From NCBI GenBank assembly GCA_902806105.1, contig CADCVI010000078.1, positions 456 through 12,162 of the forward strand: a stretch of DNA of 11,707 nucleotides, written 5' to 3'. Shown here one piece after another: positions 346 to 11,707 of the stretch. Under the pieces are notes generated by a model. The model had not been told where the DNA came from. It did not search any database and saw only the letters and a program-made list of their open reading frames with translations. Position numbers and translations under genes: made by a program. This DNA comes from an uncultured Rubrobacteraceae bacterium. Its GTDB lineage: Bacteria; Actinomycetota; Rubrobacteria; Rubrobacterales; Rubrobacteraceae. How positions within the stretch are numbered: the stretch's first letter is position 1; each line of letters opens with the position of its first letter.

Positions 346-881
346 TCAGGCTTCGTCGAAGAGGCCCTCGCCCACGTAACCGCCCTCTCGGGCGCCCCGC
401 AGCGCCTCGACGTCCGTGACGAGCTTGCAGGGGTACTCCTCCTGACCCTCGGTCGTGTTCTCCTCCCAGAGCGCCTGCTCTATCCTGTGGAAGCCTCCCC
501 ACTCCTCCTCCGGCACGTCGCCCTCGCGGGCATCTATGTCCGGGTCGAGGTCGCCGACGCTGGCCGCGATCGGCTCGATCCTCTCCCAGTGGATGCGCGT
601 CGGGGCGTAGAGCTCCTTCGCCCCCTCGACGTCACCGGAGACGACGGCGTCTGCGAACCTCTCCGTGCCCTCCAGGAGCTTGTCGGACTCGGCCACGACG
701 TACTCCTCGTAGGTCTGCGAGGCGGTTTCTAGCTCCGGAGAACCCTCGGCCTGCGGGGCCGCGGTGGTCTCTCCTCGCCGCCTCCCTAGGGGGGCGGCTG
801 ACCGCCACAACCCGCGGCGATCAACGCCAGCAGGCCCACGATAGCTCCCAAAATAAGTCTTCCAGGCATAGGGCTGCCCAA
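346..881 (-). pseudogene. efeO: Broken EfeO/imelysin (M75) iron lipoprotein gene: frameshifted and C-terminally truncated
   Basis: A lipoprotein signal peptide is encoded from TTG 881 (GGAGG 9 bases upstream) or the in-frame ATG 869: a hydrophobic stretch ending LLALIAAGCGG. That frame stops at TAG 788-786, right after a run of six C. From about 785 another frame continues with a Thr/Ala/Gln linker and a clear EfeO-type M75 domain: YEEYVVAESDKLLEGTERF, the SGDVEGAKELYAPTRIHWER helix, ERIEPIA, DLDPDIDARE, and GFHRIEQALW with the HxxE motif (478-489). One extra base in the C-run would join the two frames. The domain then ends after LVTDVEAL plus about 16 residues. The second helical half, which usually contains a SHTDLWDFxAN-like motif, is absent. 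EfeO/EfeM proteins act outside the membrane in EfeUOB iron uptake. The gene follows the iron ABC operon by about 30 bp and was probably cotranscribed with it. Alternatives are a sequencing error in the C-run, or a short M75-only protein that is still functional. Confidence 0.75.
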
Positions 882-910: not shown

Positions 911-1975
911 TTAGCTTTGTGGTGCTTCGTGGTTCGCGTCGGCCGGGAAGACCACGGCCGGTCCCTGGACGCCGACGGCGACGCGCTCGTTTATCTTGTA
1001 GGCGGAGCCCGCCCAGACGCGCGAGCGGAGCCTGCGGCCGGAGTCGAGGCGGAGCTCGACAAGCTGGTCGTGCCCGTAGAACTCCCGGCGAACAACGACG
1101 GCCTCCCCGGCGGCGAGCTTGTGCCCCAGCGGGAGCAGGAGGAGCGCCTCGGGGCGGAGCAGAACGTCGCCCTCGCCACCGTCCGACACGTCCCCGACCG
1201 CCGGGACCTCGCCGAGGTCGCAGAAGAAGCGCCCGCCCCGCATCCTGCCGGGGAGGAAATTCGCCTCGCCGACGAACCCGGCGACCTCGCGGCTCGCGGG
1301 GTGGTTGTAGAGCTTCTCGGGCTGCGCCTTCTGGGAGATGACGCCGTCGAGCATCACGGCGACCTCGTCGGCGAGGCTCAGGGCCTCCTCCTGGTCGTGG
1401 GTCACGAAGATGGCGGTCGCGCCGGCATCCGTGAGGATCTCGCGCATCTCCGTCCTCACGCGCGCCCTCAGGGTCGCGTCGAGGTTGCTGAACGGCTCGT
1501 CGAGCAGCACGATCGCGGGCTCCGGCGCCAGGGCGCGTGCGAGCGCGACGCGCTGCTGCTGGCCGCCGGAGAGCTCGTGCGGCATCCTGTTCCCGAGCCC
1601 CTTGAGGTGCGTCAGCTCCAGCACGCCCTCCACGACCCCCTCGCGGTTCTCCTTGCGGGAGAGCCCGTAGGCCACGTTCTTCGCCACGGTGAGGTGGGGG
1701 AAGAGGGCGTAGTCCTGGAAGACCATCCCGACCCTCCGCTTCTCCGGGGCGACGTTCACCCCTGGACCCGCAACGGTGCGGCCCGCAATCTCGACGGTCC
1801 CCGAATCCGGGTGCTCGAAGCCCGCGATGAGCCTGAGCGTCGTAGTCTTGCCGCAGCCGGACGGGCCGAGCAGGGCGAGTACCTTCCCCGCTTCGAGCTC
1901 GAAGTCCAGGTTCCTCACGGCGTGGACGGACCCGTAGCTCTTCTCGACCCCCGAGATGTTCACGGCGGCGTTCAA
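911..1975 (-). CDS. Iron(III) ABC transporter ATP-binding protein (FbpC/FutC type)
   Basis: This 354-residue protein is the cytoplasmic ATPase of the importer. All nucleotide-binding motifs are intact: Walker A GPSGCGKTT (37-45), Q-loop FQDYALFPHL (86-95), signature LSGGQQQR (135-142), Walker B with D-loop LLDEPFSNLD (157-166) and H-loop histidine in FVTHDQEEA (193). The C-terminal 100 or so residues look like a TOBE_2 domain (LLRPEAL and later strands), typical of the CUT/Fbp ATPase group. The start is taken as TTG 1975-1973, one base after the permease stop, because GGTGA lies 6 bases upstream. The next in-frame candidate, GTG 1963, lacks a ribosome site. The near-zero spacing implies translational coupling with the permease. 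Iron specificity is inferred from the binding protein in the same operon; from this subunit alone it could equally serve spermidine or thiamine import. Confidence 0.93.
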   Translation of the reverse strand: MNAAVNISGVEKSYGSVHAVRNLDFELEAGKVLALLGPSGCGKTTTLRLIAGFEHPDSGTVEIAGRTVAGPGVNVAPEKRRVGMVFQDYALFPHLTVAKNVAYGLSRKENREGVVEGVLELTHLKGLGNRMPHELSGGQQQRVALARALAPEPAIVLLDEPFSNLDATLRARVRTEMREILTDAGATAIFVTHDQEEALSLADEVAVMLDGVISQKAQPEKLYNHPASREVAGFVGEANFLPGRMRGGRFFCDLGEVPAVGDVSDGGEGDVLLRPEALLLLPLGHKLAAGEAVVVRREFYGHDQLVELRLDSGRRLRSRVWAGSAYKINERVAVGVQGPAVVFPADANHEAPQS

Positions 1976-1976
1976 G

Positions 1977-3590
1977 CTACTTCACCCGGTCCCGGATCGT
2001 CAGCAGGTAGAGCGGCGGGGCCGAGATCAGGATCAGGAGGAGCGCAGGACCGGCCGCCCGCGCGAAGAACGCCCCCGAGGTCGCGTTCCACACCTCGGTC
2101 GCGAGCGTGTCGAACTCTATGGGCCCTAGCAACAGCGTAGCCGGAAGCTCCTTCATCGTCGTCAGGAAGACTAGCGCCGCCCCCGCCACGAGCCCCGAAC
2201 GGGCGAGCGGCACGGTGATCGTCGCGAGTACCCCCAAGGGCCCCCGGCCGAGAGACCGTGCCGCCTCCTCTACGCTCGGGCGGGATTGCAGGAGCGCGGC
2301 GCGGATGGCCCCCAGAGCCTGCGGCAGGAAATGAACGACGTAGGCGAAGACGAGGAGCGCCAGCGTCTGGTACAGCGCCGGGACGTAGTTCGAGCCGAAG
2401 AAGACGAGGGCGAGGGCGAGGGCCACCGCCGGCAGGGCGAACCCCACGTACGAGAGACGCTCGACGAAACCGGAGATCCTGCCGGGGAACCGCACCGCGA
2501 GGACGGCCACCGGCAGCGCCGCGAGCACGGCGGCCCCCGCCGCGAGGGCGGAGACGAAGACGGAGTTCCACGCGCTCGCCCACACCGGCTCCAGCGTCTC
2601 GCCCGCCCCGATCCCCCGGACGAGCCAGTACACGAGGACGCCCACGGGCAGGACGAGCGCGAGCGAGACGACGCCGCCTGAGAACAACAGCGCCGGCCAG
2701 CGCCAACGCCCGAGCGGGACGAGCCGGGCCGACGCCGACCCCCTGCCCCCGTAGCTCGCCCGTCCGCGCGTCCGGTGCTCGACCGCGAGCACCGCGGCGA
2801 CGAGCACGACGAGCATGAGGGCGAGGATGGCGGCCGGGGTGCGGTCGAAAGCGGACTTGTACTGGATGTAGATCTCGGCCGAGAACGTGTCGTAGTGGAG
2901 CAGCGAGACCGCCCCAAAGTCGCTCAGGGCGTAGAGCGCGACGAGCAGGCCCCCCGCCACGATCGCCGGCCGAAGCTGCGGCAGCGTAATACGAAAGAAC
3001 GTCGCCCATCGCCCGCTCCCGAGCGAACGAGCCGCCTCCTCGAAGGAGGGATCCATCCCCCTCAGCGCGGCCCGTACCGTAAGGAACACGTAAGGATAAG
3101 TGAACAACGAGAGCGCCAACGCCGCCCCCGGCAGGCCATAGATGGAGGGCAGACGCTCCACGCCGAGCGGCTCGAGGCTGCCCTGCAACAGGCCCCTCGG
3201 GCCCAGCGTGCTCACGAGCACGAAGCCACCCACATAGGAAGGCACGACGAGCGGCAGCGCGACGAGGACCGCCCACACCTTCCGCCCCGGCAGGTCGGTG
3301 CGCGCCGTCAGCCAAGCGAGCGGGACGGCGATACCCACCGCCACCGCCGTGACCACGACGGCGAGCAGCACGCTGCGGGCGAGCACCTCCAGGGAGGAGA
3401 CGTCGAAGACGACCTCCGAGATCTCCGCAAGCCCCGCCTCCGAGGCCCGGAGGACGAGGTAGGCGAGCGGCAGCACCATCGCCGCCGCAACGAGCGCGGC
3501 CGGTACGGTCACGAGCGCCGGCGGACGCTTCCCGCGCGGGCGCCGCCTCGCACCCTTCGCCCTCCCTACCTCCTTCGGCAGGACCGTCAA
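1977..3590 (-). CDS. Iron(III) ABC transporter permease, two fused permease halves (FbpB/FutB type)
   Basis: This 537-residue integral membrane protein has a basic cytoplasmic N-terminus (rich in Arg/Lys to about residue 23) followed by two similar sets of hydrophobic helices, about 12 in total. Each half has an EAA loop that docks onto the ATPase: EEAARSLGSGRWATFFRITL from residue 184 and EEAARSLGRGPLGVLATITV from residue 441. This internal duplication is the hallmark of FbpB/FutB/SfuB-type permeases, in which one polypeptide forms the whole channel. The start is TTG 3590-3588 with GGAGG 7 bases upstream. The only nearby ATG opens a five-codon dead-end frame. The gene begins 16 bp after the binding-protein stop and ends one base before the ATPase start, so the three genes form one operon. 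No frameshift or truncation is visible. Confidence 0.93.
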   Translation of the reverse strand: MTVLPKEVGRAKGARRRPRGKRPPALVTVPAALVAAAMVLPLAYLVLRASEAGLAEISEVVFDVSSLEVLARSVLLAVVVTAVAVGIAVPLAWLTARTDLPGRKVWAVLVALPLVVPSYVGGFVLVSTLGPRGLLQGSLEPLGVERLPSIYGLPGAALALSLFTYPYVFLTVRAALRGMDPSFEEAARSLGSGRWATFFRITLPQLRPAIVAGGLLVALYALSDFGAVSLLHYDTFSAEIYIQYKSAFDRTPAAILALMLVVLVAAVLAVEHRTRGRASYGGRGSASARLVPLGRWRWPALLFSGGVVSLALVLPVGVLVYWLVRGIGAGETLEPVWASAWNSVFVSALAAGAAVLAALPVAVLAVRFPGRISGFVERLSYVGFALPAVALALALVFFGSNYVPALYQTLALLVFAYVVHFLPQALGAIRAALLQSRPSVEEAARSLGRGPLGVLATITVPLARSGLVAGAALVFLTTMKELPATLLLGPIEFDTLATEVWNATSGAFFARAAGPALLLILISAPPLYLLTIRDRVK

Positions 3591-3606
3591 GCCGGGGCCT
3601 CCATCC

Positions 3607-4779
3607 CTACAAGACCCCGGTCTCGCGGAGAAGCTCCAGCGTCCCCTGAAGGTCGTCGAGGTCGCCGAGGTCTACCTTTGGCGTCTGTATATCCGAGAGC
3701 GGGACGAGCCCCTCGGGGGTCTGGATGCCCTCGACCATCGGGTACTCGTACGTTTCGTCGGCGAAGTACTGCTGCGCCTGGTCCGCGAGCAGGTAGTCCA
3801 CGAAGCGCTGAGCCTCCTCGGCGTTGTCCGCCGTCTTCAGGATGCCGGCGCCGGCGACGATGACGAGCGCGCCCGGGTCGCCGTTCTGGAGGTAGTAGTT
3901 GCGCGCCCCGAAGTCCTCGCCCTGCTCGGCGAGCGCCCGGTAGAGATAGTAGTGGTTGACGAAGCCGACCTCGACCTCGCCCGAAGCCACGCCCTCGAGC
4001 GTGGTGGAGTTGTCCGGGTAGACGATGGGCTCGTTGGCCTGGATGCCCTCCAGCCACTCGCGCGCCCTGTCCTCGCCTTCAAGCGTCCTGAGCGCGGTCA
4101 CGAACGCCTGGAACGAGCCGTTCGTCGGGGCCCAGCCGATCTTGCCGCTCCACTCCGGATCGGTGAAGTCGAAGATGGAGGGGGGGAGGTCCTCTTCCTG
4201 CAGGGCCTCCGTGTTGTACGCAACGACCCTCGCCCGGCCGGAGGTGCCGACCCACAACCCCTCCGGAGAACGCAGATTCTCGGGCACCCGCGCGAGGGTG
4301 TCTTCCGGCAGCTCCGCGAACGCTCCCGCGTCGGCGACCGCCCCGAGTGCACCGGGATCCTGGGCGAAAAAGACGTCAGCCGGGCTGTTCTCGCCCTCCT
4401 CGGCGATGGTGGACGCAAGCTCCGCCGTATCTCCGTAGCGGACCTGCGCGTCGATGCCGGTCTCCTCCTCGAACTGCTCGATCACCGGCCCGACGAGGCC
4501 CTCCTCGCGCCCGGAGTAGATGACGAGCGCACCCTCCTCGGCCCGGAACGGCGCGGCGGCCGTGGTCTCGCCCGTCGTCCCCCCGCTGGTCCCTCCGCCG
4601 GTAGTCTCGCCGCCGGTAGTTCCGCCCGCAGCTGTCTCTCCCCCCGCGGGCTCGCCTGCTGCGGGCTCGCCTGCTGCTCCCCCGTTACCGCTACTAGGGG
4701 GCTCCTGGCCACAAGCGCCGAGGAGCGTCAGGGACAGAGCCAGGAGAACGAAGATGGAAGATACCCTGAGTCGAGACAA
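3607..4779 (-). CDS. Iron(III) ABC transporter substrate-binding lipoprotein (FbpA/FutA/IdiA type)
   Basis: This 390-residue lipoprotein captures ferric iron outside the membrane and delivers it to the permease. Residues 1-23 are a signal peptide with lipobox LLGAC; Cys23 would be lipidated. A Gly/Glu/Thr/Pro linker (about 26-76) tethers the domain. The periplasmic-binding fold starts near LVIYSGREEGL (85-95, Tyr88) and continues with the DVFFAQDPGALG, VVAYN (Tyr188) and KIGWAPTNGSFQA stretches. FVNHYYLYR follows (Tyr277/Tyr278), the position of the paired iron-binding tyrosines in FbpA/FutA proteins. The start is TTG 4779-4777, with GGCGGAG a few bases upstream and no better ATG or GTG in frame. 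This is the first gene of the importer operon and is preceded by an AT-rich promoter with a Fur-like dyad. The linker is encoded by short tandem DNA repeats and probably varies in length. Iron as substrate is well supported by the tyrosine pair but not proven; another metal complex is possible. Confidence 0.92.
   Translation of the reverse strand: MSRLRVSSIFVLLALSLTLLGACGQEPPSSGNGGAAGEPAAGEPAGGETAAGGTTGGETTGGGTSGGTTGETTAAAPFRAEEGALVIYSGREEGLVGPVIEQFEEETGIDAQVRYGDTAELASTIAEEGENSPADVFFAQDPGALGAVADAGAFAELPEDTLARVPENLRSPEGLWVGTSGRARVVAYNTEALQEEDLPPSIFDFTDPEWSGKIGWAPTNGSFQAFVTALRTLEGEDRAREWLEGIQANEPIVYPDNSTTLEGVASGEVEVGFVNHYYLYRALAEQGEDFGARNYYLQNGDPGALVIVAGAGILKTADNAEEAQRFVDYLLADQAQQYFADETYEYPMVEGIQTPEGLVPLSDIQTPKVDLGDLDDLQGTLELLRETGVL
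4646..4675 (-). repeat. Perfect 15-bp tandem repeat (two units) in the lipoprotein linker
   Basis: The unit GCGGGCTCGCCTGCT occurs twice back to back (plus-strand reading) and encodes the duplicated pentapeptide AGEPA-AGEPA at residues 36-45. A second, imperfect repeat built around GCCGGTAGT lies just upstream on the plus strand (about 4597-4625) and encodes TTGGETTGG-like residues. These repeats explain the low-complexity tether between the lipid anchor and the binding domain. Confidence 0.85.
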
Positions 4780-5036
4780 AACGCTCCGCCTATTCTAGAA
4801 TCGTTCCCGGCCACGATGGCCGAACGCCGGAGGAGCCGCCGGGGCCCGTTCCATCCGGCTCAATTATTTATAATGACAATCGTTTGCAATAACGACATTC
4901 ACAGGGTAGTTTACGCTGCGGGCTCAAGTCAAGCTCCGGTTGTGTTCTGCGTGAGCTGGATCACCACGGCGGCGAGGGATACCGAGCAGGACGTGGTTAT
5001 GACTCGTAATCGGGAGGGGTACGGGGCGTCTCGCGT
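4780..5036. other. Divergent intergenic region between the iron importer operon and the first GT-C gene
   Basis: This 257-bp region separates the minus-strand importer from the plus-strand GT-C gene. Its middle (about 4861-4900) is much more AT-rich than the surroundings and contains TATAAT (4869-4874, plus strand) and TTGCAA (4889-4884, minus strand). A Fur-like dyad overlaps both. Nearer the GT-C gene the only signal is a purine-rich GGGAGGGG (5012-5019). No coding frame here looks real. Confidence 0.7.
4874..4888 (-). promoter_or_regulatory. Degenerate Fur-type 7-1-7 operator in the promoter region of the iron importer
   Basis: TGACAAT-C-GTTTGCA has one half identical to the perfect dyad found at 7184-7198. 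The other half matches the ideal inverted copy at 4 of 7 positions. It lies about 95 bp upstream of the binding-protein start within an AT-rich core, overlapping likely promoter elements on both strands. Fur-family repressors are known to control such importers and to recognise 7-1-7 dyads. Binding here is inferred from the shared half-site and the position. Confidence 0.55.
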
Positions 5037-7076
5037 ATGGTAGAGGCCCTTCTTCTCCTGTTCTTTTCGTACCTCCCGGGGCACTTTCTTGGCGAGGCTC
5101 TCGTGCGCAAGGGCGACGGCTGGGGCGAGGCGGTGATGCTCCGTCTGGCGGCGAGTGCGGCGGTCGCCGCCCCCTTACTGGTCCTTCTAGCCCTCGCGGG
5201 GTGGTTCAGGACGCCGGTGATCGTCGTGAGCTTCGGGGCATGCGCGGTCGTGGCCTGGGGTTGGGCGAGGCGCCGGGGGGGCTTCCGTGCGAGGTTCTCG
5301 GGGTGGGACGCCGCAACCCTCGCGCTCGTGGGCGGCAGCTTCGCGCTTTACGCCGCGCGTCCGGCGGAGTACGTGATCAACAGCCGCGATCCCGGTGTTT
5401 ACACCCTGATCGCCGACAGGCTCGCGCGCACGGGTGAATTCTTCGTACGGGACCCGCTGGTCGGCGCGGTAGCGAGCTTCCACGATTTCGCCAGGGGCGA
5501 AAAATACCCCGGCCTTTACCTTTACGGCGAGGACCTCCTGGTGCCGCAATTCTTCCCTGGCCCCTTCGCCTTCCTGGGCCTCGGCAACCTCGCCGGCGGG
5601 CTGTGGGGCAGTTTGTACGTGGTGCCCGTCTTCGGGGCGCTGGCGGTGGGCATGGCGTTCTTGCTCGGCTCGGAGCTGTTCGGCAGGTGGGCGGGGCTGA
5701 TCGGGGCTGCCCTTCTGGCGACGAGCTACACCCAGGTCTGGTGGTCCCGGCATCCTTCTAGCGAGATCGTGACCCAGTTCTTCGTTCTCGGGGGGCTGTG
5801 GCTCGCCGCCCGGTTCGTGCGAGGTGGGGGAGGCGGCACCGGCTTTGTGGCGGGTCTGCTCTTCGGCGGGGCGATGCTGGTGCGGGTTGACGCTTTTCTG
5901 GCCGCGTCGGTCCTGCCCCTGCTTGCCGGCTACGACCTTTTTCTGGGGAGACCGGTGCGGCGCTGGCTGTACCCCGCCGTGCCGATCCTGCTCGCCGGCC
6001 TCGCCGGCCTCGTCTACCTCAACACGATCGCGGGTCGCTACCTCAACCTGATCTACGGCCGGCACGACCTCGACGAGGCGCTGAAGCTCGTCCCCTACGC
6101 GCTCGTCGCCGTGGTTATCTTCGTCCTCTTACTCTGGATCCTCCGTCGCCGGCTCGGGGAGCGGGTCGCGTGGTGGCTACGACTTCGGGTCGGGAGCGTG
6201 GCCGCGGCCTGCGCCCTTGCCATAGTGGGGGTCGCGCTCTGGGGTTATTTCGTCTTGCCGGTCCCGTGGGAGAGCCTCCCCAACGACTCCAGGGATTACG
6301 ACGCTTACCGCGAGCAGATCCTGGTGCGCCTGACGTGGTTTGTCACGCCGCCCGTAGCGCTGCTCGCGCTCCTCGGGCTCGTCCTCGCGGCACGCCGCCC
6401 GGATGCCGCCCGAATGCTCCTCTTCGGGGCGATCCTGGCCTTCGGGGTTCTCTACACCGCGGTCCCGAACGTCGCTCCCGACCTCCCGTGGGCTACACGA
6501 CGGTTCGTCCCGGCGGTCTTCCCCGGGGTGGCCCTGCTCGCCGGGTTCGCCGCCGTCGAGGCAGGACGGGGGCTGTCGCGGCTCTGGAGCCCTCGCGCGG
6601 GCCTCGCCCTTACCGGCGCCCTGGCAGCGCTCGCCTGCGCCTGGACGATCCATGCCACGCTCCCCATCCTGACCTTCAGGGAGCTGGAAGGCGCCGTGGC
6701 CGCGTTCGACAGGATCGAGAGCGAGATACCCGATGCCGACGTGATCTTCGTGGAGGTCCCTGATGCAACGGACCGCTCCGCCTCCACCTTCGAGTACCTG
6801 TACGGCCGCCCGGTTCTGCCCTACAGCCGCGACCGATTCAGGAACGAGAGGGAGGAGCTCGAGGAAGCTGGTCTGCTGGACGACGCCCTGTACGTCACGC
6901 TCGAAGGTATGCCAGGCCCTCTAATCTCGGGGTTCGAGTTCGATGAGGTGGCCCGCGAGGAGGCCATACTTCCCCGGCTGGACCCCGTCGAGGGGGACGA
7001 ACCCAAGCTGTCGACCCGCGTCGAACCCCTGCACCTGATCTACAGGGTCTACCGCCTGGAAACGGAACGCCGCTAG
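5037..7076 (+). CDS. GT-C membrane glycosyltransferase-like protein (ArnT/PMT family), paralog 1
   Basis: This 679-residue multi-pass membrane protein has many hydrophobic helices through about residue 535 and then a soluble tail of about 140 residues. A charged RDPGVY motif (117-122) sits in the first large loop after the N-terminal helices, where GT-C enzymes of families such as PMT_2/ArnT place their catalytic acidic residue. Asp118 is the candidate. Also family-like are QVWWSRHPSSEIVTQFF and the VAPDLPWATRRFVPAVFPG stretch. The N-terminus carries a distinctive YLPGHFLGE...RKGDGWGE stretch shared with the paralog at 8698. Known relatives move a sugar from a polyprenyl-phosphate carrier onto an acceptor on the outer membrane face; donor and acceptor are unknown here. 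ATG 5037 is the only suitable start; the nearest ribosome-site-like sequence is 17 bases upstream, so initiation may be weak or leaderless. The fold-level call is fairly firm but the enzymatic function is inferred. Confidence 0.78.
   Translation: MVEALLLLFFSYLPGHFLGEALVRKGDGWGEAVMLRLAASAAVAAPLLVLLALAGWFRTPVIVVSFGACAVVAWGWARRRGGFRARFSGWDAATLALVGGSFALYAARPAEYVINSRDPGVYTLIADRLARTGEFFVRDPLVGAVASFHDFARGEKYPGLYLYGEDLLVPQFFPGPFAFLGLGNLAGGLWGSLYVVPVFGALAVGMAFLLGSELFGRWAGLIGAALLATSYTQVWWSRHPSSEIVTQFFVLGGLWLAARFVRGGGGGTGFVAGLLFGGAMLVRVDAFLAASVLPLLAGYDLFLGRPVRRWLYPAVPILLAGLAGLVYLNTIAGRYLNLIYGRHDLDEALKLVPYALVAVVIFVLLLWILRRRLGERVAWWLRLRVGSVAAACALAIVGVALWGYFVLPVPWESLPNDSRDYDAYREQILVRLTWFVTPPVALLALLGLVLAARRPDAARMLLFGAILAFGVLYTAVPNVAPDLPWATRRFVPAVFPGVALLAGFAAVEAGRGLSRLWSPRAGLALTGALAALACAWTIHATLPILTFRELEGAVAAFDRIESEIPDADVIFVEVPDATDRSASTFEYLYGRPVLPYSRDRFRNEREELEEAGLLDDALYVTLEGMPGPLISGFEFDEVAREEAILPRLDPVEGDEPKLSTRVEPLHLIYRVYRLETERR
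5611..5749 (+). repeat. Near-identical 139-bp block shared with 9281-9419 (copy 1)
   Basis: Aligned by eye at a constant offset of 3670 bp, 136 of 139 bases match. The differences are at 5685 and 5699-5700, and the first 74 bases are identical. The block encodes residues 192-238, starting YVVPVFGALAVGM. The flanking sequence of the two genes is clearly more diverged. Confidence 0.93.
5856..5906 (+). repeat. Identical 51-bp block shared with 9526-9576 (copy 1)
   Basis: All 51 bases match at the same 3670-bp offset. The block encodes LLFGGAMLVRVDAFLAA. It is separated from the 139-bp block by about 100 bp of visibly diverged sequence. Confidence 0.92.
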
Positions 7077-7126
7077 AAGCGCAGCCCATCCGCATGCACA
7101 CGTTGCTTACGCTTTCCGTTATATCT

Positions 7127-7152
7127 AGTGATCTAGATCAGTGATCCAGGTC
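7127..7152. repeat. Tandem palindromic 13-bp repeat, possible operator
   Basis: AGTGATCTAGATC is followed directly by AGTGATCCAGGTC; the units differ at two positions. With its neighbouring base, the first unit contains a perfect 12-bp palindrome TGATCTAGATCA (7129-7140). The second contains GTGA-n6-TCAC (7141-7154). The pair lies about 30-55 bp upstream of the LPXTG gene's -35 box. The regulator is unknown. Confidence 0.6.
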
Positions 7153-7182
7153 ACCCCGACGGCCCCCGTCTCGCTACCTGTG

Positions 7183-7212
7183 TTGACAATGATTGTCATT
7201 TTCAACTATGTT
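7183..7212 (+). promoter_or_regulatory. Sigma-A-type promoter of the LPXTG gene
   Basis: A consensus -35 TTGACA (7183-7188) is followed, after 18 bp, by a TATGTT -10 (7207-7212, 4 of 6 matches). This would place transcription start near 7219 and give a leader of about 45 bases before the ATG at 7265. The Fur-type dyad overlaps the -35 box and the spacer, a classic repressor arrangement. Confidence 0.65.
7184..7198. promoter_or_regulatory. Perfect 7-1-7 Fur-family operator
   Basis: TGACAAT-G-ATTGTCA is an exact 15-bp inverted repeat of the layout recognised by Fur-family repressors (Fur, Zur, PerR). A second, weaker 7-1-7 dyad overlaps it with a 6-bp shift (TGATTGT-C-ATTTTCA, 7190-7204), as known for two-dimer Fur sites. 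Its position on the -35 element and spacer implies repression of the LPXTG gene when the metal is plentiful. Iron versus zinc cannot be told from sequence alone. Confidence 0.75.
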
Positions 7213-7264
7213 GCTCGCGCTCGTAAGCGTAGGGGCCGAGAGGTCCCAAGAAAGGAGATGGAAG

Positions 7265-7645
7265 ATGAGGAAGACGTTTGCTGTCGCGATCGTGCTGGCT
7301 GCCATGTTGGCCTTCGCGGTGCCGGCCTTCGCCCAGGGCGGATCTGCTAGCGGGGGTGGCTCTGCTAGCGGTGGTGGCGGCTCCGCGAGCGGGGGGGGAT
7401 CCGTCTCAGCCCCGGCTCCGGCCGCTCCGGCTCCGGTCGCTCCGGCCCAGTACGAGGCCCCTGCGGCACCTGTGGAGGAGGCTGCTCCGGTCCAGTACGA
7501 GGCACCCGTGGAGGAGGCAGCTCCGGTTGAGCAGGAAGCGGCGCCGCTCCCGACGACCGGTGGCGTTTCCCCGGTGATGCTGGTCTCCGTGGCGCTGGCC
7601 TCCGTGGTTTTGGTCGGCCTGGTCGCACTGCGGCGCAGGGCCTAG
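7265..7645 (+). CDS. Small LPXTG sortase-anchored, low-complexity surface protein
   Basis: This 126-residue protein is built entirely of export and anchoring signals around an unstructured core. Residues 1-23 are a signal peptide (RKTFAVAIVLAAMLAF, cleavage after AFA). Residues 24-48 are SASGGG-type Gly/Ser repeats. Residues 49-94 are Ala/Pro/Glu-rich with two QYEAP units (62-66, 77-81) and repeated PVEEAAPV. LPTTG (95-99) is a textbook sortase signal, followed by a hydrophobic helix and an RRRA tail. Sortase would cleave after Thr98 and attach a chain of about 75 residues to the cell wall. ATG 7265 is chosen because AAAGGAG lies 7 bases upstream and the signal peptide starts there; an in-frame upstream start at 7193 would fall inside the operator and promoter. 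No enzymatic or NEAT heme-binding domain is present. Function is unknown; a spacer, a glycan-bearing wall protein or a metal-responsive surface coat are possibilities. Confidence 0.88.
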   Translation: MRKTFAVAIVLAAMLAFAVPAFAQGGSASGGGSASGGGGSASGGGSVSAPAPAAPAPVAPAQYEAPAAPVEEAAPVQYEAPVEEAAPVEQEAAPLPTTGGVSPVMLVSVALASVVLVGLVALRRRA

Positions 7646-7668
7646 AGTAGGCTTATCGGGCCTCTTTT

Positions 7669-7697
7669 GGGCGGGGCGTTCGCGTCCCGCCCTTCTT
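7669..7697 (+). terminator. Rho-independent terminator after the LPXTG gene
   Basis: A 10-bp stem (7669-7678 with 7683-7692, GGGCGGGGCG against CGTCCCGCCC with one G-T pair) closes on a TTCG tetraloop and is followed by TTCTT. It lies 24 bp past the LPXTG stop codon and about 30 bp before the epimerase start. It probably isolates the small gene or attenuates read-through. Confidence 0.72.
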
Positions 7698-7723
7698 CGG
7701 TACCGATTGGATAGGAGAACTTG

Positions 7724-8689
7724 GTGAGCAAGGTGTTGGTTACAGGAGCGGCAGGGTTTATAGGATCGCATCTCGTGGATCGGTTGCTGGGGGCTGGGTA
7801 CGAGGTTGCGGGCCTCGACTGCTTCACCGACTACTACTCGCCGGAGGTGAAGCGAAGGAACCTGTCCCGTGCCCTCGCCCACGAGCGGTTCACCCTGATC
7901 GAGGGCGACCTCCTGAGGCTGGACCTCGACGATGTGATCGGCGGTGTGGACGGGGTGGCGCACCTGGCCGGGGAGCCGGGCGTGAGAGCTAGCTGGGGGG
8001 AGAGGTTCCCGACCTACCTGGAGCGCAACGTGCAGACCACTCAGCGGTTGTTGGAAGCGGCCTCGCGGGAGGGCTTGAAGCACTTCGTGTACGCGTCTTC
8101 TTCCTCGATCTACGGGTCGAGCGACGGGGGGCCGGTGGCCGAGGATGGCGCGCTGAAGCCCGCCTCGCCCTACGGGATGAGCAAGGCCGCCGCCGAGGAA
8201 CTGATTCGGCTGTACGCGAGAGAGAAGGGCGTGACGTCGACGGTACTGCGCTACTTCACCGTGTACGGTCCCCGCCAGCGACCCGAGATGGCCCTCTCGC
8301 GGTTCATCTCGGCGATCTCGTCCGGGGAGCCCGTCGAGGTCTTCGGTGATGGCTCTCAGGCTCGCGAGATGACCTACGTTTCGGACGTGGTCGAGGCGAC
8401 CGTGGCCGCCCTGGAGACGGAGCCGAAGGAGCCGACGCGAGCCTACAACGTCGGCGGGGGGACGCGCACGACGGTAGGCCGGCTGGTGAGCCTGGTCGGG
8501 GAGGTTCTCGGGGAGAGGACCGAGGTGCGGTATTGTCCGCCCGTCCCGGGGGACGTACGTTCCACGTGGGCCGACCTTGGGCGTTCGAGGCGGGAGCTCG
8601 GCTACGAGCCCCGCGTCTCGCTCGAGGAGGGCGTGGAGCAGCAGGTGCGCTGGGCGCTCGCCGAGCGGCGCGCCCTGGCCGCGGTCTGA
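7724..8689 (+). CDS. NAD-dependent sugar-nucleotide epimerase/dehydratase (extended SDR, GalE-like)
   Basis: This 321-residue cytoplasmic enzyme is a complete extended short-chain dehydrogenase. It has the Rossmann motif GAAGFIG (8-14), an acidic residue after strand 2 (Asp32) for NAD ribose, HLAG (80-83), and SSSSIYG (125-131) with the catalytic Ser region. The active-site YGMSK (Tyr150, Lys154) and a substrate-domain stretch YFTVYGPRQRPEMA follow. The GVRASW segment is common among UDP-glucuronate and UDP-glucose 4-epimerase-like members. The exact sugar cannot be fixed from sequence. GTG 7724 is preferred because AGGAG lies 6 bases upstream; the adjacent TTG 7721 would leave only 3. Eight bases separate its stop from the following GT-C gene, so it probably supplies an activated sugar to that pathway. 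A UDP-xylose synthase or dTDP-glucose dehydratase is less likely but not excluded. Confidence 0.88.
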   Translation: MSKVLVTGAAGFIGSHLVDRLLGAGYEVAGLDCFTDYYSPEVKRRNLSRALAHERFTLIEGDLLRLDLDDVIGGVDGVAHLAGEPGVRASWGERFPTYLERNVQTTQRLLEAASREGLKHFVYASSSSIYGSSDGGPVAEDGALKPASPYGMSKAAAEELIRLYAREKGVTSTVLRYFTVYGPRQRPEMALSRFISAISSGEPVEVFGDGSQAREMTYVSDVVEATVAALETEPKEPTRAYNVGGGTRTTVGRLVSLVGEVLGERTEVRYCPPVPGDVRSTWADLGRSRRELGYEPRVSLEEGVEQQVRWALAERRALAAV

Positions 8690-8697
8690 ACCCCGGG

Positions 8698-10746
8698 GTG
8701 ATCGAAGCCGCCCTCATTATCCTCGTGCCTGTCGTGCTCTACCTGCCGGGCCACTTCCTGGGCGGCTCCCTCGCTCGAAAGGGCGACGGCTGGACGGAGT
8801 CGACGCTGCTGCGCATCTCGTGCGCCATCGCCGTCGCGACCCCCATCCTGGTACTTCTGGCCCTGATGGGGTGGTTCAGGGCGCCCGTGCTGCTGGCGTG
8901 TTTCGCGGCGGCCACCGTCGTTGCCTGGGCGCTGGCGCGGAGGGGGAGTCAACCCGTCCGTCGGCCCTTCGAGCGGTGGGATCTCGCCCTCTACGCGCTC
9001 GTGGTCGCGAGCTTCTCGCTCTATGGCAACCCTGCGGAGTACGTGTTGAAGGACCGGGATCCCGGGGTCTACGCGGTGGTCGCCGCGAAGCTCGCTCGTA
9101 CAGGGGAACTCCTCACGCGCGACCCCCTGGTCGGCGCCGTATCCGCCTTCCACGAGTTTGCCGACGGGGCGAAGCACTCCGGCTTCTTTATCCAGGGGGA
9201 CGACCTTCTGGTACCCCAGTTTTTCCCAGGACCTTTCGCCCTCCTGGGCCTCGGCAACATGGTGGGGGGCTCGTGGGCCGGTTTGTACGTGGTGCCCGTC
9301 TTCGGGGCGCTGGCGGTGGGCATGGCGTTCTTGCTCGGCTCGGAGCTGTTCGGCCGGTGGGCGGGGCTCGTCGGGGCTGCCCTTCTGGCGACGAGCTACA
9401 CCCAGGTCTGGTGGTCCCGCTATCCCTCGAGCGAGGTTCTGACGCAGTTCTTTATCCTGGCGGGTCTGTGGCTCGCGGCCCGGTTCGTGCGAGGCGGCGA
9501 CGCGACGACGGGGCTGATGGCTGGCCTGCTCTTCGGCGGGGCGATGCTGGTGCGGGTTGACGCTTTTCTGGCCGCGCTCGCGATCCCGGCTCTCGTCGCG
9601 TACGATCTCCTCCTCGGACGCTCGCTGTCGCGCTGGGCGTTCGTGTGCGTCCCGCCGCTGATCCTGGGCGGAGGGGCCCTTCTCTACCTGTGGACCGTCG
9701 GAGGTCGCTACCTGAACATCATCGAGGATCTTCACGTCCCGGCCGGGAGCCTGCGCCTCTCCGTTTATGCTCTGGGTGCCTCGCTGCTCCTGGCGTTTCT
9801 CATCTGGTTTGCGCGCAGGTGGGGGAGGGCCGGCATCGAGGGTCTGCTGGAGGCTCGCGGGCGAAGCGCAGCCCTTATCGCGGCCGCGGTCGTGTCCGGG
9901 GCCGCCTTGTGGGCCTACTTCGTGATGCCGGAGCCCTGGGCGGGGCTGCCCGAGTACTGGGGCGGTCGCGAGGATCCCATGGCCGAGTTTCACGCCTACG
10001 ACCGGCAGGTCGTGGTGAGGATGGTGTGGTTTCTTACCCCCGCCGTGGCGCTCCTTGGGATGGCGGGGTTCCTGCTCGCGTCGTACCGGCTCGACCGGGC
10101 ACGGGCTCTTTTTCTGGGGGCGGTCCTGGCGTTCGGGGTTCTGTACGTCGCCGCGCCGAACGTGGCGCCGGATCTGCCCTGGGCGACCCGCCGGTTCGTG
10201 CCGGCCGTCTTCCCCGGGGTGAGCCTGCTCGCGGGTTACGCGGCGGTGGAGGCGGGACGGGCGCTCGGGAGGGCGTGGGACGCGCGGGCCGGGGCCGCGC
10301 TCGCGGCTGTGCTCGCGGCCGTCGCGCTAGGCTGGTCCGCGTACGTGGCCTGGCCCGTCTACGGCGTGCGAGAGCTTGCGGGGGCCGCGGAGGGGATCGA
10401 GAGCCTGGAGGATGCAGTGCCTCCATCCCGGGTGATCTACGTCGAGACTCCCGCCGAGGATTACGCTGCTACCCTGGACTACCTCTACGGGCGACCGGTT
10501 CTGGTTTATCACAGGGATCAGCTCCAGAAGGAGCTGCCGAAGCTGCGCGAGGCCGGGCTGCTGGAGGACGCCGCCTTCGTGACCGTGGAGGAGTGGCCCA
10601 AGCCCGTCTTCCCGGGCCTGAAGCTTCGCAAGGTCGGCGAGGAGAAGGTGAGCTTCCTCCGGCTCGAGGATGGGTTCAAGGAGGTGCCGCGGGAAGCTTA
10701 CGTGGAGCAGCAGGGGTTCAAGATCTTCGAGCTGGAGGCGGGATGA
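8698..10746 (+). CDS. GT-C membrane glycosyltransferase-like protein (ArnT/PMT family), paralog 2
   Basis: This 682-residue multi-pass membrane protein is homologous over its full length to the product of 5037-7076. It shares YLPGHFLGG...RKGDGW near the N-terminus, RDPGVY (120-125, candidate catalytic Asp121), QVWWSRYPSSEVLTQFF, NVAPDLPWATRRFVPAVFPG and a soluble C-terminal tail containing YLYGRPVL. The start is GTG 8698, eight bases after the epimerase stop. It aligns with the paralog's N-terminus and is probably reached by coupled translation, since no strong ribosome site is present. The frame is open further upstream (to 8533), but that part only overlaps the epimerase and reads as low-complexity Arg/Gly sequence. 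The gene overlaps the next by ATGA. Like its paralog it probably transfers a lipid-linked sugar outside the membrane; donor and acceptor are unknown. The two copies may differ in acceptor or act in sequence. Confidence 0.8.
   Translation: MIEAALIILVPVVLYLPGHFLGGSLARKGDGWTESTLLRISCAIAVATPILVLLALMGWFRAPVLLACFAAATVVAWALARRGSQPVRRPFERWDLALYALVVASFSLYGNPAEYVLKDRDPGVYAVVAAKLARTGELLTRDPLVGAVSAFHEFADGAKHSGFFIQGDDLLVPQFFPGPFALLGLGNMVGGSWAGLYVVPVFGALAVGMAFLLGSELFGRWAGLVGAALLATSYTQVWWSRYPSSEVLTQFFILAGLWLAARFVRGGDATTGLMAGLLFGGAMLVRVDAFLAALAIPALVAYDLLLGRSLSRWAFVCVPPLILGGGALLYLWTVGGRYLNIIEDLHVPAGSLRLSVYALGASLLLAFLIWFARRWGRAGIEGLLEARGRSAALIAAAVVSGAALWAYFVMPEPWAGLPEYWGGREDPMAEFHAYDRQVVVRMVWFLTPAVALLGMAGFLLASYRLDRARALFLGAVLAFGVLYVAAPNVAPDLPWATRRFVPAVFPGVSLLAGYAAVEAGRALGRAWDARAGAALAAVLAAVALGWSAYVAWPVYGVRELAGAAEGIESLEDAVPPSRVIYVETPAEDYAATLDYLYGRPVLVYHRDQLQKELPKLREAGLLEDAAFVTVEEWPKPVFPGLKLRKVGEEKVSFLRLEDGFKEVPREAYVEQQGFKIFELEAG
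9281..9419 (+). repeat. Near-identical 139-bp block shared with 5611-5749 (copy 2)
   Basis: This is the partner of the 139-bp block in the first GT-C gene: 3 mismatches, two synonymous codon changes and one Ile/Val change. It encodes residues 195-241 here. Confidence 0.93.
9526..9576 (+). repeat. Identical 51-bp block shared with 5856-5906 (copy 2)
   Basis: This is the partner of the 51-bp identical block in the first GT-C gene, at the same 3670-bp offset. Confidence 0.92.
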
Positions 10747-11678
10747 AGCGGCGGCTCGCGCTGGTCTTCGGCGGGCTCGGCCTGCTGCTCGTGCTCGCCT
10801 TCGTTCTGGCGGGGGTGGACCTCCGGGGGGCCTGGGCGTACGCGGTCGATCATCCCTTCGAGGTGGCGCTCGCCGCCGTGGCCTACACGGCGGCGTTCGC
10901 GCTAAGGGCTGCATCGTGGCGCCCGCTGATCGGCGCCCCGATCCCGCTCCCAAAGCTCTTCAACCTCCTTATGGGCGCCCTGTTCCTCAACCATGCCGCC
11001 CCGGCCAAGGCGGGCGACCTCGCCCGCATGTACGCCCTCTCGCGCCGGGTGCCCGCCGGGCGCGCCGTCGCGAGCGTCGTGCTGAGCAGGATCGTGGACC
11101 TCGTGGGCCTGCTCGCGGTGCTCGCGGCGGCGTTGGCTCTCGCCGGGGCCGGGGGGTGGGGGAGGCTGCTTCTCCCCGCCCTGGCCGTCGCCGGGGCGGT
11201 GGGTGGCCTGTTCCTGCTCGCCCGCCTGCGGCTGCCCGCCTCCCTTGGCGCCCGGTTTGGCGCCGTCGAGAAGGTCTTGAGCAGCGCGCGCGAGGCGCTC
11301 GGGGAGACCAGCCGTGGAGCCCTGCTACGGGCGTTCGCGTTCGCGGCGCCGGCGTGGGTGCTCGAGGCGGGCATCCTTTACGTCGTGGGGCGGGGTCTCG
11401 GGCTGGGGCTCTCCCCGGCGGAGGTCGTAGCCGCTACCTGCTTCGCGGTGCTCGTCGCGGCCGTGCCGCTCACGCCCGGGGCCCTGGGGACGTACGAGGC
11501 CGGGATGGTCGCCATCCTGCTAGCGTTCGGCGCCTCAGCCGAGCTCGCGTTCGCCGCCGCCGTCATCACGCACGCCATGAAATTTTTGTACGCTTTTGCA
11601 GCCGCGCCCTTCGCTTTCGGGGAAGGATTCGCGGCGCTGGAGAAAGGAAAGGTGAGGCCCGATGAAGTCCGCTTCTAA
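10743..11678 (+). CDS. Flippase-like membrane protein (UPF0104 / lysylphosphatidylglycerol synthase TM domain)
   Basis: This 311-residue integral membrane protein has about eight hydrophobic helices. Family-like motifs are FLNHAAPAKAGDLARMY (81-97), where the Asn, Pro, Gly-Asp and Arg positions are typical, and PLTPGALGTYEAG (242-254), matching the conserved P-x-TPGxLGxxE of the last third. Relatives include the membrane domain of MprF and the AglD/UPF0104 proteins, which often sit in polysaccharide or lipid-glycan clusters and are thought to move or process lipid-linked molecules. There is no C-terminal aminoacyl-transferase domain, so it is not a complete MprF. The start ATG 10743 overlaps the GT-C stop (ATGA), indicating translational coupling; the open frame upstream of it only overlaps the GT-C gene. 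Its end overlaps the following gene by 17 bp. A role in handling the lipid-linked sugar used by the GT-C enzymes is inferred from context. Confidence 0.85.
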   Translation: MKRRLALVFGGLGLLLVLAFVLAGVDLRGAWAYAVDHPFEVALAAVAYTAAFALRAASWRPLIGAPIPLPKLFNLLMGALFLNHAAPAKAGDLARMYALSRRVPAGRAVASVVLSRIVDLVGLLAVLAAALALAGAGGWGRLLLPALAVAGAVGGLFLLARLRLPASLGARFGAVEKVLSSAREALGETSRGALLRAFAFAAPAWVLEAGILYVVGRGLGLGLSPAEVVAATCFAVLVAAVPLTPGALGTYEAGMVAILLAFGASAELAFAAAVITHAMKFLYAFAAAPFAFGEGFAALEKGKVRPDEVRF

Positions 11679-11707
11679 GTTCGAGATCGTCGCTGCCCGG
11701 TGCTGGA
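11662..11707 (+). CDS. Start of an unidentified gene, runs off the window
   Basis: Fifteen codons are visible (MKSASKFEIVAARCW) from ATG 11662, which lies inside the last codons of the flippase-like gene in another frame. GGTGAGG sits about 4 bases upstream of the ATG, a usable ribosome site. The 17-bp overlap and shared direction suggest it belongs to the same operon. The visible part is too short to assign a family; a further glycan-pathway enzyme would fit the context but is a guess. Confidence 0.6.
   Translation, partial: MKSASKFEIVAARCW

Follow-up and report, generated by a model that had tools for sequence, protein, structure and literature searches.

A conserved, probable Fur-type operator ahead of a predicted sortase-substrate gene and a predicted surface glycosylation operon in Rubrobacter-like actinobacteria

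The window, by which we mean the whole stretch of DNA analysed here (11,707 nucleotides), has its nearest loci in Rubrobacter MAGs and in R. marinus; its host is a Rubrobacter-like actinomycete and not a Firmicute. The features of the window that are needed below, with coordinates and strand, are as follows.

911..1975, minus: FbpC-type ATPase
1977..3590, minus: FbpB-type permease
3607..4779, minus: FbpA-type ferric-binding lipoprotein (best solved match 7w3w, 2.1e-88)
4874..4888, plus: weaker Fur-type site TGACAATCGTTTGCA between fbpA (minus) and GT39a (plus)
5037..7076, plus: GT39a, GT-C glycosyltransferase paralogue of GT39b, divergent from fbpA
7129..7153, plus: tandem palindromes TGATCTAGATCA / TGATCCAGGTCA, probable second regulatory sites
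7183..7212, plus: sigma-70-type promoter TTGACA-18-TATGTT, overlapped by the operator (consensus scan)
7184..7198, plus: putative Fur-type operator, perfect 7-1-7 dyad TGACAATGATTGTCA (0 mismatches to the Fur-like motif)
7190..7204, plus: imperfect second 7-1-7 of the overlapping array, shift +6, TGATTGTCATTTTCA (4/7 arm pairs)
7265..7645, plus: small secreted LPTTG protein of 126 aa with signal peptide, Ser/Gly spacer, Pro/Ala/Glu repeats and sorting signal (sequence reading)
7669..7692, plus: 10-bp G+C-rich hairpin with TTCG loop between the LPXTG gene and the epimerase gene, a possible attenuator or 3' stabiliser
7721..8689, plus: EPI, SDR epimerase, UDP-glucuronate 4-epimerase-like (family and solved-structure matches)
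8698..10746, plus: GT39b, GT-C (PMT_2/GT39-like) membrane glycosyltransferase (Pfam; AlphaFold2 model)
10743..11678, plus: FLIP, flippase-like LPG_synthase_TM protein (family match)
11662..11707, plus: start of AP, alkaline-phosphatase-superfamily membrane protein, cut by the window end (start by eye against relatives; family from the protein of locus L003)

The perfect 7-1-7 dyad that a preliminary description had placed at 7184–7198 is present, as is the overlap it had noted with the promoter: of its 15 bases, five fall in the −35 box (all but the first base of the box) and ten in the adjoining part of the 18-bp spacer. This promoter (−35 TTGACA at 7183–7188, −10 TATGTT at 7207–7212, 10 of 12 consensus matches) is the sole promoter-like site that a consensus scan found in 6500–9500. 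The overlapping dyad shifted by 6 bp was also recovered, at 7190–7204, but it is imperfect, and its sequence differs from TGATAATNATTATCA at three positions. Perfect 7-1-7 dyads of whatever sequence are no rarity here: the window has two of them against a shuffle mean of 1.69, with at least two in 51 of 100 shuffles. The rare feature is the match to a Fur-like sequence, not the dyad as such: at up to three mismatches the window holds two matches, compared with 0.01 expected. The second of these lies in the fbpA promoter region (4874–4888), and its 15-mer is identical in loci L001, L002, L003, L005, L087, L100 and L104.

The preliminary description had tied its reading in part to conservation of the dyad upstream of orthologs. 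At orthologous loci the dyad is indeed conserved, with zero or one mismatch in all five related loci (L001–L005) besides the window. When the window, L001, L002 and L004 are aligned, 20 of the 21 columns of the 21-bp array (7184–7204) and 28 of the 30 columns from −35 to −10 are invariant; the flanks drift, with 34/102 invariant columns upstream and 15/38 downstream. The imperfect partner is found at +6 in these three loci as in the window. In L003 and L005 (R. marinus) the imperfect partner of the perfect dyad is at −6 and an overlapping array is kept. Divergent genes flank the site in L087, L088, L092, L093, L097, L098, L100, L104, L115, L129 and L131, relatives in which the other gene alone could be its target; in the window, L001–L005 and L089 no gene was recognised on the divergent side.

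Across 39 genomes of the class, the motif TGMNAATSATTNKCA has 35 exact sites in 25 genomes (0 to 4 per genome, none in the remaining 14), and the reversed pattern, used as a control, has one. Thirty-one of the 35 lie no more than 700 bp before FTR1/EfeU, EfeO, siderophore-ABC (FecB/FecC-type), SufC-like, EPI or AP genes, a count that describes the set and is no independent enrichment test, since several of the query proteins were taken from site neighbours and chosen after the sites had been seen. Query members have Pfam matches that confirm FTR1 and PF01497; for the SufC-like protein Pfam gives an ABC ATPase only, the name SufC being our reading, and the neighbour at L090, one of the 31, is merely 35% identical to its query. 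A 32nd site (L095) precedes the gene of a PF01497 binding protein. Three sites remain: at L111 and L113 the genes behind are lipoprotein-like without an assigned name, the one at L111 having no Pfam match, and at L094 the neighbour is ambiguous. FecCD-like genes are also among the genes at the motif, and FbpA carries a variant of it. When two mismatches to TGMNAATSATTNKCA were allowed, unrelated genes made up many of the loci examined, and two-mismatch matches in or near such genes were not counted as support.

The region upstream of the operon was also followed through its AP gene. Protein search gave strong AP orthologs in 21 of the 39 class genomes, and those of G005, G010 and G015 were left out of the upstream test because their contig starts inside the operon. 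Where the region upstream of the operon or of AP was readable, a Fur-type site was found in 18 of 18 genomes: 16 have at most one mismatch, and two (G026, G031) have two mismatches, to one of five pattern forms that were picked after the sites were seen. For each of these 18 sites, none of 400 shuffles gave a match. The test scanned 25 regions, including the window and genome G008, which has no AP ortholog and for which one of 400 shuffles matched. Among 296 genomes drawn evenly from the phylum, 14 had an AP match at 1e-60, all of them already in the class set except G289 (51% identity). Relatives repeatedly show the order iron importer, site, glycan operon. Conservation of the dyad and the class-wide sites at iron genes together support the earlier view that the element is a Fur-type operator, as far as comparison of sequences can show.

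The importer genes of the window, fbpABC (minus strand, 911–4779), encode a ferric-type ABC importer. In FbpA and EfeO the lipobox Cys is followed by a Thr/Ser-rich linker, a candidate glycan acceptor. At 346–810 (minus) the window holds a remnant of EfeO, matching residues 50–180 of 302 of the R. marinus protein, whose C-terminus by eye resembles the tail of EfeB. At this place both EfeO and EfeB are found in R. marinus (L005), and in L001 just an EfeB tail was matched.

The first gene behind the putative operator encodes a protein with the layout of a sortase substrate by sequence reading (signal peptide, motif, hydrophobic span, basic tail), its C-terminus being LPTTG-hydrophobic-RRRA. Among five copies counted, the sorting motif is LPTTG, LPATG or LPSTG in four and LPASG in that of G008. 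The protein has no Pfam or NCBIfam match at 1e-3 and hence no NEAT domain, in agreement with the preliminary description. A metal-binding role was considered and rejected as a likely reading: no His, Cys or Asp precedes the sorting motif in the five copies (that of G008 has three Met there), and without His or Cys in this part metal binding is unlikely. The most likely role of the LPXTG protein is a passive one, as a spacer or acceptor anchored to the wall rather than as a metal binder. Sortase genes occur in 39/39 class genomes, a set that does not include the window's own genome, and none was found among the nine main window proteins scanned.

A homology search with the LPXTG protein scored 7992 candidates and returned 17 matches at E ≤10, seven of them below 1e-3. 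Its gene is present in six of nine readable genus-level epimerase loci, namely the window, L001, L002, L004, L113 (G008) and L115 (G009); G005 and G010, cut by contig ends, and G006, in which no such locus was found, are not counted. The G009 copy (L115, 8001–8574) is diverged, lies between a ferritin gene (minus) and the epimerase gene behind a one-mismatch Fur-type site, and has a broken reading frame in the deposited sequence. L003, L005 (R. marinus) and L112 (G007) lack the gene, the dyad lying directly before the epimerase gene, and so do all seven of the loci outside the genus that were examined (L087, L092, L093, L098, L100, L104, L129), in which the gap between site and epimerase gene, about 90–105 bp, is too short for it. 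These loci do not support the proposal that the operator exists primarily for the surface protein. From the comparison, the LPXTG gene appears to be a lineage-restricted first gene of the operon, and the conserved target would be the operon itself, which comprises a uronate-type epimerase, a GT-C enzyme, a flippase-like protein, AP and a polyprenyl-phosphate-sugar synthase and stands beside fbpABC/efeUOB.

The best solved match of EPI is 6zl6 (7e-74), which we take to be the UDP-glucuronate 4-epimerase of Bacillus cereus, and the next distinct protein is MoeE5 (8.3e-66); no NCBIfam model was above cut-off among the matches listed (25 of 30). Arg185 of the B. cereus enzyme is reported, in the excerpt of PMC12338863, to hold the carboxylate of UDP-GalA, and the residue of EPI aligned to it is conserved (counted by hand). 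EPI differs from the B. cereus epimerase in having Ser aligned to Thr126, also counted by hand. UDP-GlcA 4-epimerase activity is a prediction from sequence kinship and the presence of the carboxylate-binding Arg. A UDP-glucose/GDP-mannose dehydrogenase gene was seen behind a Fur-type site in L116 (G005), at 260–1774, and in L113 (G008), at 6118–6541. The site has one mismatch in G005 and two in G008; the gene is complete in G005 and in pieces in G008, where it is divergent from the LPXTG and epimerase genes. A Fur-type site before such a gene fits a supply of UDP-glucuronate.

GT39b has PF13231 above cut-off. A sequence search against solved structures gave nothing at 0.1, and an AlphaFold2 model was therefore used (59 sequences; pLDDT 84.6, pTM 0.89). 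It resembles the folds of AglB, human and yeast oligosaccharyltransferase, PglB and ArnT, with low query TM-scores of 0.38–0.45 (25 matches, E ≤0.001). The model places GT39b in the GT-C class, a fold that leaves the substrate unfixed. The gene is split in L001, L003 and L112 and reduced to three pieces in L002, and in L005 no match to it was found; outside the genus, a single GT39 gene follows EPI in loci with EPI. In the deposited R. marinus genome (L005; G004:C1, ~2.397–2.404 Mb) the matches to GT39a, EPI, FLIP, AP and GT2 are all in pieces. These broken genes and the split or reduced GT39b reflect either sequencing indels or decay of the locus. By eye, the two GT39 paralogues, otherwise diverged, share near-identical stretches at about 5610–5760 and 9280–9420, which suggests gene conversion.

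FLIP belongs to the LPG_synthase_TM / TIGR00374 flippase-like proteins and is not of GtrA or Wzx type. Outside the window, in relatives with a long enough contig, AP is followed by a GT2 gene resembling polyprenyl-phosphate-sugar synthases. The GT2 protein of L003 matches Pfam PF00535, with dolichol-phosphate-mannose synthase as best solved match (3.6e-14), and is also close to undecaprenyl-phosphate aminoarabinose-type transferases; its NCBIfam matches are all below cut-off.

A further element lies upstream of the dyad, in the form of tandem TGATCNNGRTCA palindromes with copies at 7129–7140 and 7142–7153. L001, L002 and L004 have the tandem at an unchanged distance, with one degenerate copy in L001. 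Of 38 Fur-type sites (36 exact ones and the one-mismatch sites of L002 and L115), 13 have a relaxed palindrome, TGAYCNNGRTCA, no more than 120 bp away; random positions drawn in these loci had one in 70 of 7600 cases, and 200 shuffles gave a mean of 0.025 and a maximum of 1. The 13 are the window, L001, L002, L004, L086, L090, L091, L095, L099, L103, L110, L111 and L115, at distances of 42–83 bp. In the divergent siderophore-type promoters of L086, L099, L103 and L110 there is one palindrome on each side, at 59–61 bp. With up to two mismatches, the tandem form was found at 10 places in 8 of the 39 genomes (reversed control, 1). Four are before flavodoxin genes (G013, G020, G021, G039), flavodoxin being matched in 7/39 class genomes; three are before the glycan operon (G001, G002, G003), one is beside the L111 Fur-type site, and G022 has one before an unnamed lipoprotein gene and one among unrelated genes. 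The TGATCNNGRTCA palindrome resembles CRP/FNR sites, and the tandem palindromes are probably the sites of a second iron-starvation regulator with CRP/FNR-like geometry. A transcription start near 7219, as placed from the −10 box, would put the centre of the nearer palindrome at about −71, the usual position of a class I activator.

Fur-family genes are present in 39/39 class genomes. R. marinus has four, of which three were compared with solved structures. For one, the Fur chain 9ire is clearly best (1.6e-29; next 4.6e-22); for another, 9ire is again first (2.2e-21), followed by PerR chains (1.3e-18); for the third, 3eyy, presumably a Nur, is first (1.5e-19), with 9ire second at a nearly equal score and FurB/Zur 2o03 fourth. 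A DtxR-type C-domain was matched in 31/39 class genomes. With these domains and the four Fur paralogues of R. marinus, there is more than one candidate binder; that the signal is iron rather than zinc is suggested by the target genes. Fur homologs of R. xylanophilus are given in PMC2464607, in the part of that paper available, and no study of Fur targets in Rubrobacter was found among the literature matches listed.

We consider it likely that 7184–7204 is an iron-responsive Fur-type operator leading both the LPXTG gene and the glycosylation operon, on the comparative basis of site conservation, promoter overlap, importers with the same motif, gene order and enzyme families. Chance has in its favour the frequency with which perfect 7-1-7 dyads arise in shuffled windows, and a perfect dyad alone is not significant; a chance palindrome is nevertheless ruled out by the conservation, the Fur-motif match and the class-wide motif set also speak against it, and its probability is practically negligible. 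The operator might instead control the LPXTG gene alone, with the transcript ending at the hairpin of 7669–7692 and the epimerase operon having an unregulated promoter of its own. The hairpin between the genes is strong and may end transcription ahead of the epimerase gene, and four relatives (L001, L002, L004, L115) have predicted hairpins in this gap too. However, the consensus scan did not call it a terminator, its tail is T-poor, no promoter-like site was found between it and the epimerase gene, and the site stands directly before the epimerase gene in L003, L005, L112 and the seven loci outside the genus, which makes control of the LPXTG gene alone unlikely.

The 7-1-7 form is common to Fur, Zur, PerR and Nur regulators, and PerR, 3eyy and FurB/Zur chains are among the matches of two of the Fur-family proteins of R. 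marinus. Binding by another paralogue of Zur, PerR or Nur type, with zinc, peroxide or nickel as the signal, is nevertheless quite improbable in our view: the genes at the motif are those of FTR1/EfeU, EfeO, PF01497 and FecCD-like proteins, with the variant at FbpA, and no zinc or peroxide genes were recognised among the named neighbours of the 35 sites. That the motif stands between an iron importer and glycan genes in many relatives would also fit a leftover of a once divergent importer promoter, without control of the gene behind it. We nevertheless regard a leftover as very improbable: in the window, fbpA has a separate promoter site at a distance of 2.3 kb, and the site ahead of the LPXTG gene is the more perfect dyad of the two and lies in an array that is nearly invariant among four loci.

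Under the preferred reading, an iron-responsive operator ahead of the LPXTG gene and the glycosylation operon, we infer binding by Fur, iron as the signal, read-through of the hairpin and the exact sugar and acceptor as follows. While iron is plentiful, RNA polymerase would be blocked by a Fur-family repressor bound across the −35 box and spacer; once iron is scarce, the repressor would leave 7184–7204 and transcription would proceed. The transcript would carry the small sortase substrate first and then, reduced by the hairpin, the extracytoplasmic glycosylation operon. In that operon, EPI would produce a UDP-uronic acid (probably UDP-GalA), whose sugar GT2 would attach to polyprenyl phosphate; once turned over by the flippase-like protein, the lipid-linked sugar would be passed on by the GT-C enzyme to an acceptor at the surface. 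As this acceptor we would guess first at the Ser/Gly spacer in the LPXTG protein or at the Thr-rich linkers in FbpA and EfeO, with a cell-wall polymer as the alternative. The sugar and acceptor steps are tentative, and we give them somewhat less than an even chance.

More generally, comparison of these loci suggests that Rubrobacter-group soil bacteria remodel their surface sugars when iron runs short. In a wider and rather doubtful extension, Rubrobacteria would possess an iron-starvation-induced surface glycosylation beside FbpABC/EfeUOB, under a Fur-type repressor and an FNR/CRP-type activator, in which uronic-acid-rich glycans on the wall spacer and on the linkers of the ferric lipoproteins would collect Fe(III) for the importers, an anionic glycan taking the place of a heme relay. 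A working motif for iron control is also gained for a class of Actinobacteria for which the literature matches listed included no study of Fur targets.

The Fur box of B. subtilis and E. coli is modelled, in the excerpt of PMC11353095, as two overlapping 7-1-7 repeats. The element described here is like that model in its 15-bp 7-1-7 dyad, its overlapping though imperfect partner shifted by 6 bp, its position over the −35 box and spacer and its iron-uptake neighbours, and unlike it in that the window arms are TGACAAT and not TGATAAT, one repeat of the two is perfect and exact sites number only 0 to 4 per genome. Multi-component transmembrane glycosylation systems such as GtlA/GtcA/GtlB and CsbB/GtcA/YfhO, as described in the excerpt of PMC8035078, likewise combine a GT-A polyprenyl-phosphate sugar synthase, a flippase-like protein and a GT-C enzyme, as found here in one locus. 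Unlike in the systems of that excerpt, the flippase-like protein here is LPG_synthase_TM and not GtrA, an epimerase and an alkaline-phosphatase-family protein are added, and an iron-type operator stands ahead. Among the matches listed, the literature searched gave no iron-regulated glycosylation operon of this kind.

Isd-type systems provide Fur-regulated sortase substrates, and those known to be under Fur control are for the most part proteins that bind heme in pathogens. Like these, the window has a predicted sortase-anchored wall protein behind a Fur-type operator and adjoining iron transport. Unlike them, it has a wall protein without NEAT domain and without His or Cys before the sorting motif, no sortase among the proteins scanned, and an LPXTG gene that leads a glycosylation operon, not a heme relay. 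In these environmental actinobacteria the same type of switch would precede a wall protein with spacer-like features and, with it, a glycosylation operon, beside ferric importers, and, if the link holds, surface glycosylation would be part of the iron-starvation response, which is testable in cultivated Rubrobacter.
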